DNA from: Sulfurivermis fontis
GTDB taxonomy: Bacteria; Pseudomonadota; Gammaproteobacteria; Thiohalomonadales; Thiohalomonadaceae
Direction of reading: 5' to 3'
DNA length: 64,000 nt
NCBI RefSeq assembly: GCF_004001245.1
Contig: NZ_AP018724.1
Coordinates: 1,108,501 to 1,172,500 of the forward strand
The translations under genes and the position numbers were made by a program. This document shows positions 3,053 through 44,425 of this stretch, one piece after another (the stretch's first letter is position 1; each line of letters begins with the position of its first letter). Below the pieces are notes generated by a model. The model searched no databases and was not told the DNA's origin. It saw only the letters and a program-made list of their open reading frames with translations.

Positions 3053-3922
3053 CTAGCCCCAGTTGAGCTTGTTGCGCAGGATGTGGAAGTGGTCGTGATC
3101 CACCGGATGGATCAGGCGCACCTTGTGCTCGGCCTTGCGTACCCGCACGCGGTCGCCGGCCATCAGGCCGAAGTTGATCTGGCCGTCGCAGGTGACCTGG
3201 GCATGGGCATGGCCGGAGCCGCGAACTACGATCTCGATCAGGTTGCCGCCATCCACCACGATGGGGCGGTTGCTCATGGTGTGCGGGCAGATGGGCACCA
3301 GCACCACGGCATTGAGGCAGGGCTGCAGGATCGGGCCGCCACCGGACAGGGCATAGGCGGTGGAGCCGGTGGGGGTGGAGACGATCAGGCCGTCGGAGTG
3401 CAGATGGTTGAGGAAGTGGCCGTTGACGTAGGTTTCCGTCTCCAGCATGCGCGCCACGTCCCACTTGTGTACCACCACGTCGTTGAGGGCGACGCTTTCG
3501 TTGATGTGCTCGCCGTCGCGCAGCACGGTACAGTGCAGCAGAAAGCGCTCATCCTCGCTGTATTGGCCGGCGAAAATCTCGTCCAGTTTCTGCTCCATCT
3601 CGCCGGGCGAGATATCGGTGAGGAAACCGAGACGGCCCTGGTTGATGCCGATGAGGGCGATGTCGAAGGGGGCGAGGGAGCGGGCCGCGTTGAGCAGGGT
3701 ACCGTCGCCGCCCACCACGATCACGGCGTCGCACTGGCGGCCGATATCCTCGCGGCTGGCGACGGTGAGGCCATGGCCGCTCCAGACCTCGGCGGTGGCC
3801 TCGTCGAGCAGGGTCTCAATCTGGCTGGAAGCGAGGTAATCGGCCAGCACCTGGAGCGAGGCCCCCACGTTGGGGTCGCCGTACTTGCCGATAATCCCTA
3901 CCCGCCCGAAAGTATCTGCCAT
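3053..3922 (-). CDS. nadK: NAD kinase
   Basis: Phosphorylates NAD to NADP in the cytoplasm. The protein is 289 aa when begun at the ATG giving MADTFGRVGIIGKYGD, which has a GGAGA ribosome site just upstream. A frame extension of 18 residues is possible but lacks such a site. The conserved GGDGTLL motif with the catalytic Asp is at residues 71-77, and the NE/D-rich and glycine-rich substrate motifs of the family follow (LHSDGLIVSTPTGSTAY). It is transcribed away from hrcA and towards recN, the usual gammaproteobacterial arrangement. Confidence 0.96.
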   Translation of the reverse strand: MADTFGRVGIIGKYGDPNVGASLQVLADYLASSQIETLLDEATAEVWSGHGLTVASREDIGRQCDAVIVVGGDGTLLNAARSLAPFDIALIGINQGRLGFLTDISPGEMEQKLDEIFAGQYSEDERFLLHCTVLRDGEHINESVALNDVVVHKWDVARMLETETYVNGHFLNHLHSDGLIVSTPTGSTAYALSGGGPILQPCLNAVVLVPICPHTMSNRPIVVDGGNLIEIVVRGSGHAHAQVTCDGQINFGLMAGDRVRVRKAEHKVRLIHPVDHDHFHILRNKLNWG

Positions 3923-3982
3923 CGTCTTCTCCGCAAAAATGGCGCTAACGTTAACATGGCCGCTGTCCTGCGCCAACCGACC

Positions 3983-4012
3983 TTGACACCCCTTTTCACC
4001 CCTTGCTAACTT
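3983..4012 (+). promoter_or_regulatory. sigma-70-like promoter of hrcA
   Basis: TTGACA at 3983-3988 and TAACTT at 4007-4012, separated by 18 nt. The CIRCE operator begins 6 nt after the -10 box, where a bound repressor would block initiation. A sigma-32 reading of the same stretch has a poor spacer. Confidence 0.65.
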
Positions 4013-4018
4013 GCCCTG

Positions 4019-4045
4019 TTAGCACTCATCTGGTTGGAGTGCTAA
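4019..4045. promoter_or_regulatory. CIRCE operator (HrcA binding site)
   Basis: Perfect match to the CIRCE consensus TTAGCACTC-N9-GAGTGCTAA, with spacer ATCTGGTTG. It lies between the hrcA promoter and the hrcA start codon, so HrcA is expected to repress its own operon and release it on heat shock. Confidence 0.97.
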
Positions 4046-4064
4046 GCGTATACCTTTAGGTGCA

Positions 4065-5114
4065 ATGAGCAAGGTTTCCTCCATCGCCATGTCCGACCGC
4101 GCCCAGCAGCTGCTCAAGTTGCTGGTGGAGCGCTATATCCGCGAGGGGCAGCCGGTGGGCTCGCGTACGCTGGCGCGCGGTCAGGGCGTGGACCTGAGCC
4201 CAGCCACTATCCGCAACGTGATGGCCGACCTGGAGGATCTGGGCCTGGTCAAGGCGCCGCACACTTCCGCCGGCCGTATACCCACGGTGCAGGGCTACCG
4301 CCTGTTCGTGGACAGCCTGCTGACGGTGAAGCCGCTGCAACCCGCCGAGGTGCGCGCCCTGCAGGCCAAGTTCGAGCAGGCCGCCGATCCGCAACAGGTG
4401 CTGGTGACGGCATCGGCGTTGTTGTCGGAGATCAGCTCCATGGCCGGTGTCATCATGGTGCCGCGGCGCGAGCAGCCTACGGTGCGTCAGGTCGAATTCA
4501 TCGCCCTGTCCGGTAACCGCGTGCTGGTGGTGCTGGTGCTGGACGGCAACCAGGTGCAGAACCGCATGATCACCACTTCACGCCGCTATTCCCCGGCGGA
4601 GCTGACTCAGGCGGCCAATTATCTGAACCACGCCCTGGCCGGCAAGGATTTCACCAAGGTCCGGGATACCCTGCTGCGGGAGATGCGCGAAACCCAGGAG
4701 AGCATCAATCAGCTCATGCTGATGGCCATCGAAATAGCCAACCGCACTTTCAAGGCGGGCGAGGAGGGCGGCGACTATGTCCTGGCGGGGCACACCAACC
4801 TAATGGGCTATGCCGAGATGGCGGATATCGACCGCCTGCGCCAGCTGTTCGAGGCCTTCAACCGCAAGCGCGACATTCTGCATCTGCTGGATCAGGCGGC
4901 CCATGCCCAGGGGGTGCAGATATTCATCGGCGAGGAATCGGGCTACGAGGTGCTGGATGCCTGCAGTGTGGTCACTTCGCCTTACGAGGTGGATGGCGAG
5001 GTGGTCGGCGTGCTGGGTGTCATCGGGCCGACGCGCATGGCCTACGACCGTCTCATCCCGCTGGTCGACGTGACCGCCAAGCTGCTCGGCGCGGCCTTGA
5101 ATCAGCAGCAATAA
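4065..5114 (+). CDS. hrcA: heat-inducible transcription repressor HrcA
   Basis: Repressor of class I heat-shock genes that binds CIRCE and depends on GroEL for folding. The protein is 349 aa with an N-terminal winged helix-turn-helix (SDRAQQLLKLLVERYIREG, then SRTLARGQGVDLSPATIRN) and a C-terminal GAF-like dimerisation region ending in the family's VIGPTRMAYDR motif. The ATG at 4065 is used; an in-frame ATG at 4089 is the alternative. A perfect CIRCE site lies 19 nt upstream. Its last codons overlap a sigma-32-type promoter for grpE. Confidence 0.97.
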   Translation: MSKVSSIAMSDRAQQLLKLLVERYIREGQPVGSRTLARGQGVDLSPATIRNVMADLEDLGLVKAPHTSAGRIPTVQGYRLFVDSLLTVKPLQPAEVRALQAKFEQAADPQQVLVTASALLSEISSMAGVIMVPRREQPTVRQVEFIALSGNRVLVVLVLDGNQVQNRMITTSRRYSPAELTQAANYLNHALAGKDFTKVRDTLLREMRETQESINQLMLMAIEIANRTFKAGEEGGDYVLAGHTNLMGYAEMADIDRLRQLFEAFNRKRDILHLLDQAAHAQGVQIFIGEESGYEVLDACSVVTSPYEVDGEVVGVLGVIGPTRMAYDRLIPLVDVTAKLLGAALNQQQ

Positions 5115-7770: not shown

Positions 7771-7776
<6 letters not shown>

Positions 7777-7871
7777 CAAGTGACGAGTGACAAGTAACAA
7801 GCACAAGGGTCGAAGCGTGCGCTTCGACCCTTGTGTCTTTCTTGAAACTTGTGTCTTGCGACTTGTAACTT
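7771..7871 (+). repeat. heptamer-ladder hairpin between dnaK and dnaJ
   Basis: The left arm is four consecutive 7-nt units of type CAAGTGA or CAAGTAA. The right arm is their reverse complement in register (units of type CTTGNNA), so the arms pair as short 4-5 bp helices separated by small mismatches. The centre is a perfect 14-bp stem, ACAAGGGTCGAAGC (7803-7816) with loop GTGC and its complement (7821-7834). The first unit overlaps the last Lys codon and stop codon of dnaK. No T-run follows, so it is not a classical terminator. dnaJ begins 13 nt after the right arm with only a weak ribosome site. Confidence 0.85.
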
Positions 7872-9017: not shown

Positions 9018-9030
9018 ACAGGAGATGCAA

Positions 9031-9091
9031 GATACAAGTAACAAGATACAAGGGGATGAGTTCGCTGCGCTCGTATCTTGTTCCTCGTACC
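9031..9091 (+). repeat. heptamer-type hairpin between dnaJ and the dsrE-like gene
   Basis: The left arm contains CAAGTAA, CAAGATA and CAAG units (9035-9052). ACAAGATAC (9041-9049) pairs perfectly with GTATCTTGT (9073-9081), and the pairing continues outward with mismatches to 9031/9091. The apical part contains CGCTGCG. The layout resembles the dnaK-dnaJ and carA-carB elements but is more degenerate. Confidence 0.7.
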
Positions 9092-9146
9092 TATCGGTCT
9101 CCACCCGTCGAGAGTCATTTGACAGTATGTGGAGGAGGGAGCGGGC

Positions 9147-10704: not shown

Positions 10705-11847
10705 TTGCGGCAACCGGCCCTGCTGGCTCTGGAGGATGGGTCCCTGTTCTGGGGCGAATCGATCGGTAGCGAGGGACAGACCGTCGGCGAGGTGGTATTC
10801 AATACCGCCATGACCGGCTATCAGGAGATCCTTACCGACCCCTCCTATGCCCGCCAGATCGTCACCCTGACCTATCCCCACATCGGCAATGTCGGTACCA
10901 ACGACGAGGACGAGGAGTCCTCCCATGTCTATGCCGCCGGCCTGGTGATCCGCGAACTGGCCGCCATCGCCAGTAACTGGCGCTGCCAGATGCCGCTGGA
11001 CGAGTACCTGCGCAAGCACAAGGTCGTCGCCATCCACGGCATCGACACCCGCCGCCTGACCCGCATCCTGCGCGAGAAGGGCGCCCAGAACGGTTGCATC
11101 GTCGCCGGTACCGACATCGATGCCGAGACAGCGCTGGCCGCCGCTCGCGGCTTCCCCGGCCTCAAGGGCATGGATCTGGCCAAGGAGGTCAGCACCCACA
11201 TGCCGTATGAATGGGCTCAGGGCTGTTGGACCCTGGCCGGTGGCCTGCCGACCCATCCCGAGCCGCTGGAGGAGAAGCTGCCCTACCATGTGGTGGCCTT
11301 CGACTATGGCGTGAAGCGCAACATCCTGCGCATGCTGGTGGACCGCGGCTGCCGCATCACCGTGCTGCCGGCGCAGACCCCGGCGGAAGAGGTGATGAAG
11401 CTGAAGCCGGACGGTGTATTTCTGTCCAATGGCCCCGGCGACCCGGAGCCGTGCGACTACGCCATCCAGGCCATCAGGACCATCGTCGATGCTGGCATCC
11501 CCACCTACGGCATCTGCCTGGGCCATCAGCTGCTCGCCCTGGCCAGCGGCGCCAAGACGGTGAAGATGAAGTTTGGCCACCACGGCGCCAATCACCCGGT
11601 GCAGGACCTGGACAGCCGGCAGGTGATGATCACCAGCCAGAACCACGGCTTTGCCGTGGACGAGGCCACTTTGCCGGCCAACCTGCGCGCCACCCACCGT
11701 TCGCTGTTCGACGGCTCACTGCAGGGTATCCACCGCACCGACAAGCCGGCCTTCGGCTTCCAGGGCCACCCCGAGGCGAGCCCCGGTCCGCACGACGTGG
11801 CACCGCTGTTCGACCACTTTGTGGAACTGATGAAAAGTAACAAGTGA
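10705..11847 (+). CDS. carA: carbamoyl-phosphate synthase small subunit
   Basis: Glutamine amidotransferase subunit supplying ammonia to CarB for arginine and pyrimidine synthesis. The start chosen is the TTG at 10705, with a strong CTGGAGG site six bases before it. It gives 380 aa, close to the 382 of E. coli, and the conserved start [13 protein letters not shown]. An ATG at 10597 is in frame but would run through the leader hairpin. The class I triad is present: Cys271 in YGICLGHQ, and His/Glu in [13 protein letters not shown]. The last codons (Lys-Ser-Asn-Lys-stop) are made from the first units of the carA-carB repeat hairpin. Confidence 0.97.
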
Positions 11848-11905
11848 CAAGTGGCAAGCGACAAGAGCTGACCTCTTGGAACTTGAAACTTGTAACTTGC
11901 AACTT
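11835..11905 (+). repeat. heptamer-ladder hairpin between carA and carB
   Basis: The left arm is a run of 7-nt units (CAAGTGA, CAAGTGG, CAAGCGA, CAAGAGC). The right arm is the in-register complement (TTGGAAC, TTGAAAC, TTGTAAC, TTGCAAC). The fold is CAAGAG/CTCTTG (11862-11867 with 11873-11878, 5-nt loop) at the tip, then 4-5 bp helices at 55-58/82-85, 48-52/88-92, 41-45/95-99 and 35-38/902-905 (last digits), separated by small internal mismatches: about 25 pairs in all. It begins inside carA and ends 11 nt before the carB ATG. No usual ribosome site is visible for carB. Confidence 0.88.
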
Positions 11906-11916
11906 GTGACTTAATC

Positions 11917-42953: not shown

Positions 42954-43325
42954 ATGGCCCAGTCCACACGCAGCCGTCGCGTGGGTGAGCAGATGCAGCG
43001 CGAGCTGGCACTGCTCATCCAGCAGGAACTCAAAGATCCGCGCCTGGGGATGATCACCGTCTCCGGCGTGGAGGTGACGCGTGATTTCGCCCACGCCAAG
43101 GTGTTCGTCACCGTGCTCGGCGATGACGCCGGGCAGGTGGAAAAGTCGCTCGAAGGCCTGCGTCACGCCGCCGGTTTCCTGCGCCGCGAACTGGGCCGCC
43201 GCATGCAGTTGCGCACCATCCCGGAACTCCATTTTGTCCACGATACTTCCGTCGAGCGGGGTACGCGCCTGTCGGCCCTGATCGACCAGGCCGTCGCTTC
43301 TGACGGCAAGAAAACGAACGATTGA
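42954..43325 (+). CDS. rbfA: 30S ribosome-binding factor RbfA
   Basis: Cold-shock-linked 30S assembly factor. The protein is 123 aa from the ATG at 42954, four bases after infB. The KH-like fold signatures IQQELKDPRLGMITVSGVEV and RTIPELHFVHDTS are clear. Confidence 0.95.
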   Translation: MAQSTRSRRVGEQMQRELALLIQQELKDPRLGMITVSGVEVTRDFAHAKVFVTVLGDDAGQVEKSLEGLRHAAGFLRRELGRRMQLRTIPELHFVHDTSVERGTRLSALIDQAVASDGKKTND

Positions 43326-43340
43326 AACCCAAGCGGTCAA

Positions 43341-43485
43341 GTCCGCAAATGAACGCGAATGGACGCAAATCGATTTCAATCATTAACGACCATCGTCCGC
43401 AATGCGCTTACGCCACCCCAAGGCGATGGCACCACCTTGGGCCCAATGGAATGACATTCGCGTCCATTTGCGTTTATTCGCGGAC
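43341..43485. repeat. long inverted repeat with 10-nt periodic arms between rbfA and truB
   Basis: The left arm (43341-43370) and the reverse complement of the right arm (43456-43485) match at 26 of 30 positions, and all four differences are A/G. Each arm is GTC followed by tandem 10-nt units of form CGCRAATRRA. The centre holds a perfect 7-bp stem CCCAAGG (43417-43423) with CCTTGGG (43435-43441). The element fills most of the 177-nt gap between two genes that are usually adjacent. It has no open frame and no terminal T-run. Confidence 0.85.
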
Positions 43486-43502
43486 TCAGTGAGATTTTGG
43501 TA

Positions 43503-44425
43503 ATGACTCGTCGCCAGCGCCAGCGGGGCCGTGAGGTCAACGGCATCCTGCTTCTCGATAAACCCATCGGCATCACCTCCAACGACGCTTTGCAGCAGGT
43601 CAAGCGCCTGTTCGATGCGCGCAAGGCAGGCCACACCGGCAATCTCGATCCTATGGCCAGCGGCTTGCTGCCGTTGTGCCTGGGTGAGGCGACCAAGGTA
43701 TCGGCCTTTCTGCTCGATGCCGACAAGCGCTATCGCGGTACCTGCAAGTTGGGCGTACGCACCAACACCGGCGACGCCGACGGCGAGGCCATCGAAACCC
43801 GGCCGGTAGGCGCCTACAGCGAGGCCCAGGTGCGCGAGGTGCTGGCGCGCTTTTGCGGCGAGATCGAGCAGATCCCCCCATGCATTCCGCCATCAAGCAC
43901 CAGGGGCTGCCGCTCTACAAGCTCGCGCACCAGGGGCTGGAGGTGGAGCGCCAGCCACGCCGGGTCACCATCTACGAACTGAATCTGCTCCGCCTCGCCG
44001 ACGACGAGCTGGAGATCGAGGTGCATTGCTCCAAAGGGACCTATATCCGTACCCTGGCCGAGGACATCGGCGCGGCCTTGGGTTGCGGTGCCCACCTCAG
44101 CCAGTTGCGCCGTACCATGGCCGGTCCCTTCACGGAGGCCGGCATGGTGACCCTGGAGCGGCTCAAGCAGACGCTGCTGGAAGGGGGGCAGGAGGCCATC
44201 GATGCCCTGCTGCTGCCCGTCGAAGACGCCCTGGGAGGCTGGCCGGCGGTGAATTTGACGGCCAACCTGGCCTATTACGTGCGCCAGGGGCAGGCGGTGC
44301 AGGTGCCCCAGGCCCCCACCCGGGGCTGGGTGCGCCTGTTCGGCCCGGAGGGCGATTTCATCGGCGTCGGCCACATCCTGGACGATGGCCGGGTGGCCCC
44401 GAAGCGGCTGTTCAATCTCGCATAA
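43503..44425 (+). pseudogene. truB: tRNA pseudouridine(55) synthase TruB, frameshifted
   Basis: Makes pseudouridine 55 in the T loop of tRNAs. The N-terminal part reads normally from the ATG at 43503 through the catalytic region [16 protein letters not shown] to EIEQIPP. The rest ([19 protein letters not shown] to VAPKRLFNLA) continues in another frame. The break is in the C run at 43874-43879, which has six C where seven would restore Gln-Ile-Pro-Pro-Met and a protein of about 307 aa (E. coli 314). Everything else is intact, so this is a very recent mutation, a sequencing error, or a slippery site. It stands in its usual place between rbfA and rpsO. Confidence 0.9.

Follow-up and report, generated by a model that had tools for sequence, protein, structure and literature searches.

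A ladder-ended inverted repeat between rbfA and truB is probably a non-coding form of a small GxxExxY mobile element

What is the inverted repeat with periodic arms that lies between rbfA and truB of Sulfurivermis fontis: a regulator of truB, a by-product of copying, or a mobile element? The window, i.e. the whole stretch of 64,000 nucleotides that was analysed (G000:C1:1108501-1172500), comes from a 3.25-Mb genome in a single contig (G000), and the locus is made up of the following features, with positions counted from the first letter of the window.

42954-43325, plus strand: rbfA, left neighbour (Pfam RBFA, E 4.2e-37)
43326-43340, no strand: 15 nt from the rbfA stop to the left arm, counterpart absent in four congeners
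43341-43370, plus strand: left ladder arm, three 10-nt units with outer end GTCCGC, GTCCGCAAATGAACGCGAATGGACGCAAAT
43371-43455, no strand: spacer (loop), 85 nt
43456-43485, minus strand: right ladder arm, inverted copy (26/30), reverse complement GTCCGCGAATAAACGCAAATGGACGCGAAT
43486-43502, no strand: 17 nt from the right arm to the truB start, counterpart absent in four congeners
43503-44425, plus strand: truB, right neighbour (Pfam TruB_N, E 1.3e-30), open frame broken at the C run 43874-43879

The two arms agree at 26 of 30 positions and all four differences (at 43347, 43351, 43357 and 43367) are A/G, exactly as the original prediction had claimed, and the 10-nt period that it read in them is recovered by Tandem Repeats Finder (period 10 at 43344-43370; three units per arm). 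The inverted repeat scores 23 (matches minus mismatches); when the two halves were redrawn 1000 times under a first-order Markov model, the score averaged 9.2 and never exceeded 16. An earlier, unclean control, in which the palindrome was free to overlap itself, had reached a maximum of 25 in 300 draws. Among the 25 inverted repeats listed for the window (at least 20 nt, arms within 600), it ranks second by length (31 nt) and is the longest with complementarity above 85%. As to the right neighbour, truB shows an apparent frameshift at its run of six C, which may be a sequencing error or real; in each of the four congeners, the frame that matches truB runs open, for 309 to 378 aa.

RNA folding of the element is strong on both strands (-62.3 and -71.5 kcal/mol, z -7.2 and -6.5), with 0 of 200 shuffles as low, and a position between rbfA and truB makes a polar effect plausible, as expected if the arms formed a hairpin in the rbfA-to-truB transcript that acts as a riboregulator or attenuator of truB. 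At the Rfam gathering score two tRNAs were the sole matches in the window, with none at the element. The riboregulator reading is nonetheless very improbable and we reject it, because the site is empty in congeners and the arms do not change together (below); the other copies, moreover, lie at other genes. The rbfA stop and the truB start are separated by 6 or 7 nt in each of the four congeners (G001, G002, G003 and G004) vs 177 nt in G000, the extra DNA including the 15 and 17 nt beyond the arms. Thus, the comparison for clean insertion sites that had been proposed finds the junction empty in 4 of 4 congeners, with the ladder in G000 alone of the five: relative to them, the element is an insertion. 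It is neither single-copy nor conserved across genera, the findings that the original prediction had named as pointing to a truB riboregulator, for there are many copies and this site is filled in one of the five genomes of the genus.

A genome-wide search for opposed arrays, likewise proposed beforehand, indeed revealed a multi-copy family. The 20-base two-unit pattern has 15 exact matches in G000 vs 0 for the reversed control, and 109 vs 22 when up to 3 mismatches are allowed. Reading 34 stretches round pattern matches yielded 27 complete ladder pairs of 61-164 bp (median 110); pairs were called solely in the order ladder, then inverted ladder, within 600 bp, and the locus L162 thus falls outside. 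These 27 pairs have the form of a MITE (terminal inverted repeats, short, non-coding, dispersed). The consensus over the 58 arms of G000 is GTCCGCAAATGAACGCgAATGgACGCaAAT, with sharp edges outside of which just a weak A-rich and T.A preference remains. Within an element the arms are no more alike than between elements, both in G000 (23.93 vs 23.86 of 30; n=27, p 0.41) and in G002 (p 0.94), while a set of other genomes, which mixes species, gave a higher identity within elements (26.41 vs 25.50, p 0); there is no sign of compensatory change of paired arms in G000 or G002. Since the arms of one element are no closer than those of different elements, each arm seems to be kept as a site rather than as half of an RNA stem.

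The loops behave differently from the arms. Of 143 distinct loops compared, 37 have a partner at E <0.001 and 106 have none; the 85-nt loop at rbfA-truB is among those without a partner, and no two loops of G000 pair with each other. A profile joins 13 of 131 loops, all of the genus, in one diverged module of ~80 nt, and one conserved core common to all loops was rejected on these counts. In eight G002 copies whose loops are related, identity (each gap scored as a difference) is 91.8% in the arms and 48.9% in the loops, i.e. the arms are conserved as the loops drift apart. Another dispersed repeat, whose ends resemble GGAAGCTCTGAATAAGT, occurs beside or inside L031, L035, L054 and L055 and in the left flank of L040 (all in G000), and looks like an IS-derived MITE.

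To place the insertion at rbfA-truB among others, ten further G000 sites were searched in the genus via their joined flanks. Nine could be aligned, partial cases being judged by eye and some alignments being loose; at the tenth, L044, the congener repeats were too partial to align. G002 holds a window-type ladder at 9 of 9 aligned sites and G004 at L032, L049, L051 and L053, as well as at L034, where a CGCCAAG ladder is nested inside it. The element is missing from G001 at L032, L049, L051 and L061 and from G003 at L032, L045 and L061; at L058, G001 contains half of one. Different species have a loop in common at L032, L045, L049 and L061. Another flavour of ladder stands in place of the window type at L045 (G001, CGCAGAGA type; G004, ACAAGATG type), at L037 (G004, ACAAGATG type) and at L058 (G004, CGCAGAGA type), which together with the nested ladder at L034 indicates that several kinds of ladder share insertion spots and can nest. 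Copying is seen in G002, where L103 and L104 are identical over 234 bp in unrelated flanks, including a loop that holds a nested CGCCAAG ladder. The search for target duplications that had also been suggested brought out no clear or regular one: shared flank words amount to 3.52 vs 3.30 ± 0.18 in G000 (weak 4-nt signal, z 3.5), 3.29 vs 3.31 in G002, and 3.47 vs 3.48 in the other genomes (weak 4-nt signal, z 4.5).

Which gene, if any, belongs to these arms? Inverted arms scoring at least 15 surround 74 of 77 loci that encode a GxxExxY protein vs 1 of 150 shifted windows (taken from the longer GxxExxY loci only), and arms scoring at least 17 surround 70 of 77 vs 0 of 150; in a truB-locus control, 1 of 19 windows had arms scoring at least 15. 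The count of 77 leaves out L363 and L364, whose flanks are short, and for L150 and L160 the gene boundaries were assigned manually; of ten further loci that are weaker or partial, six have arms. The association of gene and arms also emerges when the protein is ignored: DNA patterns blind to it returned 157 paired elements, seven of them with a GxxExxY match (two being one element seen twice, and one a 26-codon remnant), and among paired elements of at least 350 nt (within the 600-bp limit) six of nine carry a GxxExxY gene, two of the six being the same element. The gene between the arms matches PF13366/TIGR04256 and hence is no IS200-like (Y1, HUH) RAYT transposase. Within the genus, two of five genomes have TIGR04256; across the class, it was found in 63 of the 369 genomes sampled. 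No GxxExxY match was found in G000, G001 or G003, and G004 has three GxxExxY genes, none of them in the arm type of the window.

Gene-less copies can in a few cases be traced to the gene-bearing form, for which L113, the putative autonomous form, served as reference. L115 (G002) is an internal deletion of L113 that keeps both inner ends and has lost ~336 nt; in the non-coding L033 of G000, the 23 nt next to the arm agree with the inner end of L113 at 20 positions, a sign that a GxxExxY gene was once present in this lineage; and a copy in Thiosymbion retains 26 codons of the gene. Such an origin is claimed for these three only, because short chance matches to other gene-bearing elements occur at E 0.0003 to 0.009; most loops, that at rbfA-truB included, show no trace of derivation from a gene-bearing element. 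Given the many copies, the empty sites in relatives, the one unit copied intact and the two deletion derivatives, the proposal of a family of non-autonomous elements is supported. We conclude that the rbfA-truB feature is probably a non-coding, MITE- or REPIN-like copy of a small, ladder-ended mobile element of a GxxExxY system.

By fold, the GxxExxY protein is modelled as a minimal Cas4/RecB-like PD-(D/E)XK nuclease with a domain of ~115 aa. Its AlphaFold2 model (pLDDT 96.4, pTM 0.87) has as best Foldseek match SSO0001 (4ic1 chain A, E 1.9e-4), which we take to be a Cas4 protein, and VIA-align places 4ic1 chain G on top (Z 10.1 over 97 residues, 3.2 Å; next row Z 8.2), with chains of other Cas4 proteins, AddAB, LHK-Exo and MGME1 also among the structural matches. 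E22, Y25, E71, K73, Q85 and Y89 are invariant in 24 aligned GxxExxY sequences, and D61 is nearly so; ExK and QxxxY are motifs of Cas4/RecB-type PD-(D/E)XK nucleases. The protein thus shares with those nucleases the fold and the conserved D61, E71, K73, Q85 and Y89, but differs in its small domain and in that its gene lies between ladder arms. At the level of sequence, it had 0 matches to solved structures at E up to 1, and a Cas4b profile matched weakly (E 0.015) in one of two GxxExxY proteins. A known defence-system family was rejected, this single match being all that spoke for it. One gene is called cas4 by CRISPRone and GxxExxY by the authors' own pipeline in PMC8934634.

The flavour of ladder co-varies with protein clade. 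By our own reading, most arms are built of a 7-nt core, C-R-Y-N-R-A-D (9 of 77 loci lack enough such cores), and 73 of the 74 GxxExxY loci with arms have a best repeat lag of 8, 9 or 10. Core spacing is 10 in 26 of 26 for the CGCNAAT type and 9 in 16 of 16 for the AAA type, and mostly 8 or 9 for the AAG and GAG types. On a tree of the 77 proteins, which has few columns and many unsettled forks (L370, L381, L389 and L396, with an internal stop, were entered with X), the last three letters of the core need 20 changes vs a shuffled mean of 43.0, with 0 of 200 shuffles as low; for this figure the nine loci without core label were counted as a separate group. A branch with support 94 (not starred) sets the seven CGCNAAT (10-nt) loci, each from a different genome, apart from all others, and the two further genes nearest this clade, L448 and L449, have 10-nt ladders as well (CACGAAT and CACAGAT). 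When labels were shuffled within genomes only, leaving out the nine unlabelled loci, 14 changes were observed, a count as low as this arising in 2 of 1000 shuffles (mean 22.8), so that host identity alone fails to explain the flavour.

The same relation appears at the scale of whole genomes. In a set of 80 genomes, all 7 that have the matching clade show 12 or more matches of the 10-nt CGCNAAT ladder (12-135, overlaps counted), whereas among the 73 others five have at least 10 matches, four have 1 to 4 and 64 have none (Fisher p 2.5e-7). Three of the seven clade-bearing genomes had first been met through the ladder itself; restricted to genomes outside the genus that were found through the protein, the comparison gives 4 of 4 vs 2 of 69 (p 1.4e-5). 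Absence of the matching clade here refers to the GxxExxY loci that were read, a subset of all matches. The exceptions, with ladders and no matching clade, include G000 (37 matches), G001 (36), G004 (72) and G003 (4), as well as G476 (29), a partial GxxExxY gene of which falls in another clade, and G533 (11); a ladder can outlive its gene, or a gene can have been missed.

This co-variation bears on the possibility that another, unrelated enzyme or host recombination mobilises the ladder pairs and that the GxxExxY genes are passengers. Ladders do persist in genomes without a detected matching gene, and CGCAAAT ladder arms enclose a TacA-like antitoxin paired with a GNAT protein in L162 (Thiodiazotropha, positions 3555-4665), so arms can bracket other genes. 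TIGR02436, a different family, sits in ladders of another period (below), and a nuclease by itself does not paste DNA. A passenger, however, would not need an arm flavour that tracks its clade even within single genomes, nor would the ladder flavour of a whole genome be expected to follow the clade present, and we regard the passenger explanation as unlikely.

We infer instead that the GxxExxY nuclease moves the element, with the help of either a second protein or a step of host repair or replication, which is needed because the nuclease alone does not paste DNA. The full-length element would carry a single gene, that of the GxxExxY protein, and each such protein would recognise its own ladder, about three 7-nt C-R-Y-N-R-A-D cores placed every 8-10 bp, a spacing near one core per helical turn. 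The paired arms may be extruded as a cruciform or hairpin, the nuclease would cut at or near the element ends, and host repair would then insert a copy elsewhere, with no regular duplication of the target. As long as the gene persists, gene-less copies with both arms could be mobilised in trans; once it is gone, they would decay in place. Such a loss has seemingly occurred in G000. More broadly, and more tentatively, it is quite possible that GxxExxY proteins act as the nucleases that mobilise an undescribed class of bacterial elements with one gene each, in which each clade has its own ladder code (7-nt cores at 8-10 bp), spreads itself and gene-less pairs, and shares spots and nests with other flavours, parallel to a TIGR02436 class with 7-nt ladders.

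The range of the 10-nt ladder speaks to a further alternative. The longer arm pattern, at up to 2 mismatches, is found among 56 relatives in the five genomes of the genus alone. A looser pattern matches 9 of 398 sampled genomes of the phylum, namely G000 and eight of one other family (f73), where the matches include CACGAAT-like ladders and the reversed control also matches in two genomes. In a named genome collection, whose taxa are a sample, the matches listed for the 30-base arm pattern include records, mostly MAGs, of Thiodictyon, Lamprocystis, Thiodiazotropha, Thiosymbion and Nevskia, and also of Rhodanobacter, Thioalkalivibrio, Methylohalomonas, Thiohalomonas and Rubrivivax. The original prediction had offered template switching on tandem repeats as the origin of the arms; such fold-back copying would make arms afresh without a dedicated enzyme, in keeping with each arm being a short tandem array in itself and with the lack of a regular target duplication. 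Yet the two arms of an element resemble other arms as much as they resemble one another, the 30-base pattern recurs in several genera among the matches listed, a whole unit has moved (L103/L104) and the flavours track the protein tree, all of which makes this origin highly improbable, and we reject it.

Compared with the GxxExxY elements, the 7-nt ladders of the window go with a different protein. Three such pairs, of the CAAG flavour, lie outside the rbfA-truB element:

7771-7866, no strand: 7-nt ladder pair, CAAG flavour
9027-9092, no strand: 7-nt ladder pair, CAAG flavour
11831-11912, no strand: 7-nt ladder pair, CAAG flavour

Genes of the four-helix-bundle family TIGR02436, the IVS-protein family, have inverted arms in 27 of 29 loci (L439 left out) vs 1 of 104 shifted windows, and the best repeat lag is 7 in all 27 loci with arms. 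G000 has one such gene, L428 (G000:C1:422409-422717), in CAAG-type 7-nt arms, and the CAAG ladder pattern has 107 + 149 matches in this genome (overlaps counted) vs 0 for the reversed control. That TIGR02436 genes sit in 7-nt ladders of this very flavour explains the 7-nt ladders of the window. The design that had been likened to these ladders is indeed shared in form, but two unrelated protein families go with it, at lags of 7 vs 8-10. By eye, L428 lies upstream of an apparent tRNA gene. Cyanobacterial STRR heptanucleotide repeats have a 7-nt period too and resemble the TIGR02436 ladders in this respect.

Akin to REPINs and their RAYT partners (PMC3116915), the ladder elements are short, dispersed, intergenic inverted pairs with a less conserved spacer, and are linked to a gene that has these repeats on both sides, the type of repeat corresponding to the type of protein. 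There, however, the partner is an IS200-like tyrosine transposase and REPINs show compensatory changes, whereas here it is the PD-(D/E)XK nuclease-like GxxExxY protein, the arms are 8-10-nt ladders, and those of one element resemble each other no more than they resemble other arms. The ladder element thus works like REPIN/RAYT and is no member of it, since its partner is no RAYT and its arms do not change together. In form it fits a MITE: set beside the bacterial MITEs of PMC10969869, it shares non-coding, dispersed copies with terminal inverted repeats and two copies that are internal deletions of the gene-bearing form, but shows neither a recognised transposase gene nor a clear target duplication, and has ladders for ends and loops that are mostly unrelated. 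A MITE minisatellite of Porphyromonas gingivalis (PMC4596501) also combines a tandem repeat with an inverted-repeat element, but the repeat is inside the element there, whereas here the tandem units themselves form the arms. The intervening sequences of 23S rRNA (PMC4990558) are likewise small selfish units with terminal inverted repeats and one small ORF (S23, four-helix-bundle), but here 10-nt arms go with GxxExxY, of a different fold, and the site is not in an rRNA gene.

In the titles and abstract openings of the open-licence PubMed Central literature we found no description of GxxExxY genes within ladder arms, which implies no absence elsewhere, and in the library searched the name itself turns up in just two papers, in passing. 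If GxxExxY proteins are mobility nucleases, one explanation would cover many genes of unknown function and many unexplained intergenic repeats; a paired protein-DNA code with many natural variants would become available for reading DNA recognition by a minimal Cas4-like fold, and a REPIN/RAYT-like partnership would have been assembled from unrelated parts.

As regards vehicles, spread by phages was rejected, one GxxExxY protein having no tblastn match in a phage collection. Clear arms occur in three of seven plasmid records of other groups (Bacteroides finegoldii, Sphingomonas and Bernardetia; an eighth record, Prevotella, was left out). Individual loci depart from the usual layout: in L405 (Fusobacteria plasmid) the GxxExxY gene is flanked by a direct, not inverted, repeat, CAGATTTAATCCGTGTACCTAT, and in L403 (Gemmatirosa plasmid) a complete CGCGGAT ladder pair adjoins the gene instead of surrounding it. 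In L408 (Sphingomonas), a GxxExxY element with CGCGAAG arms lies between fabD and fabG.
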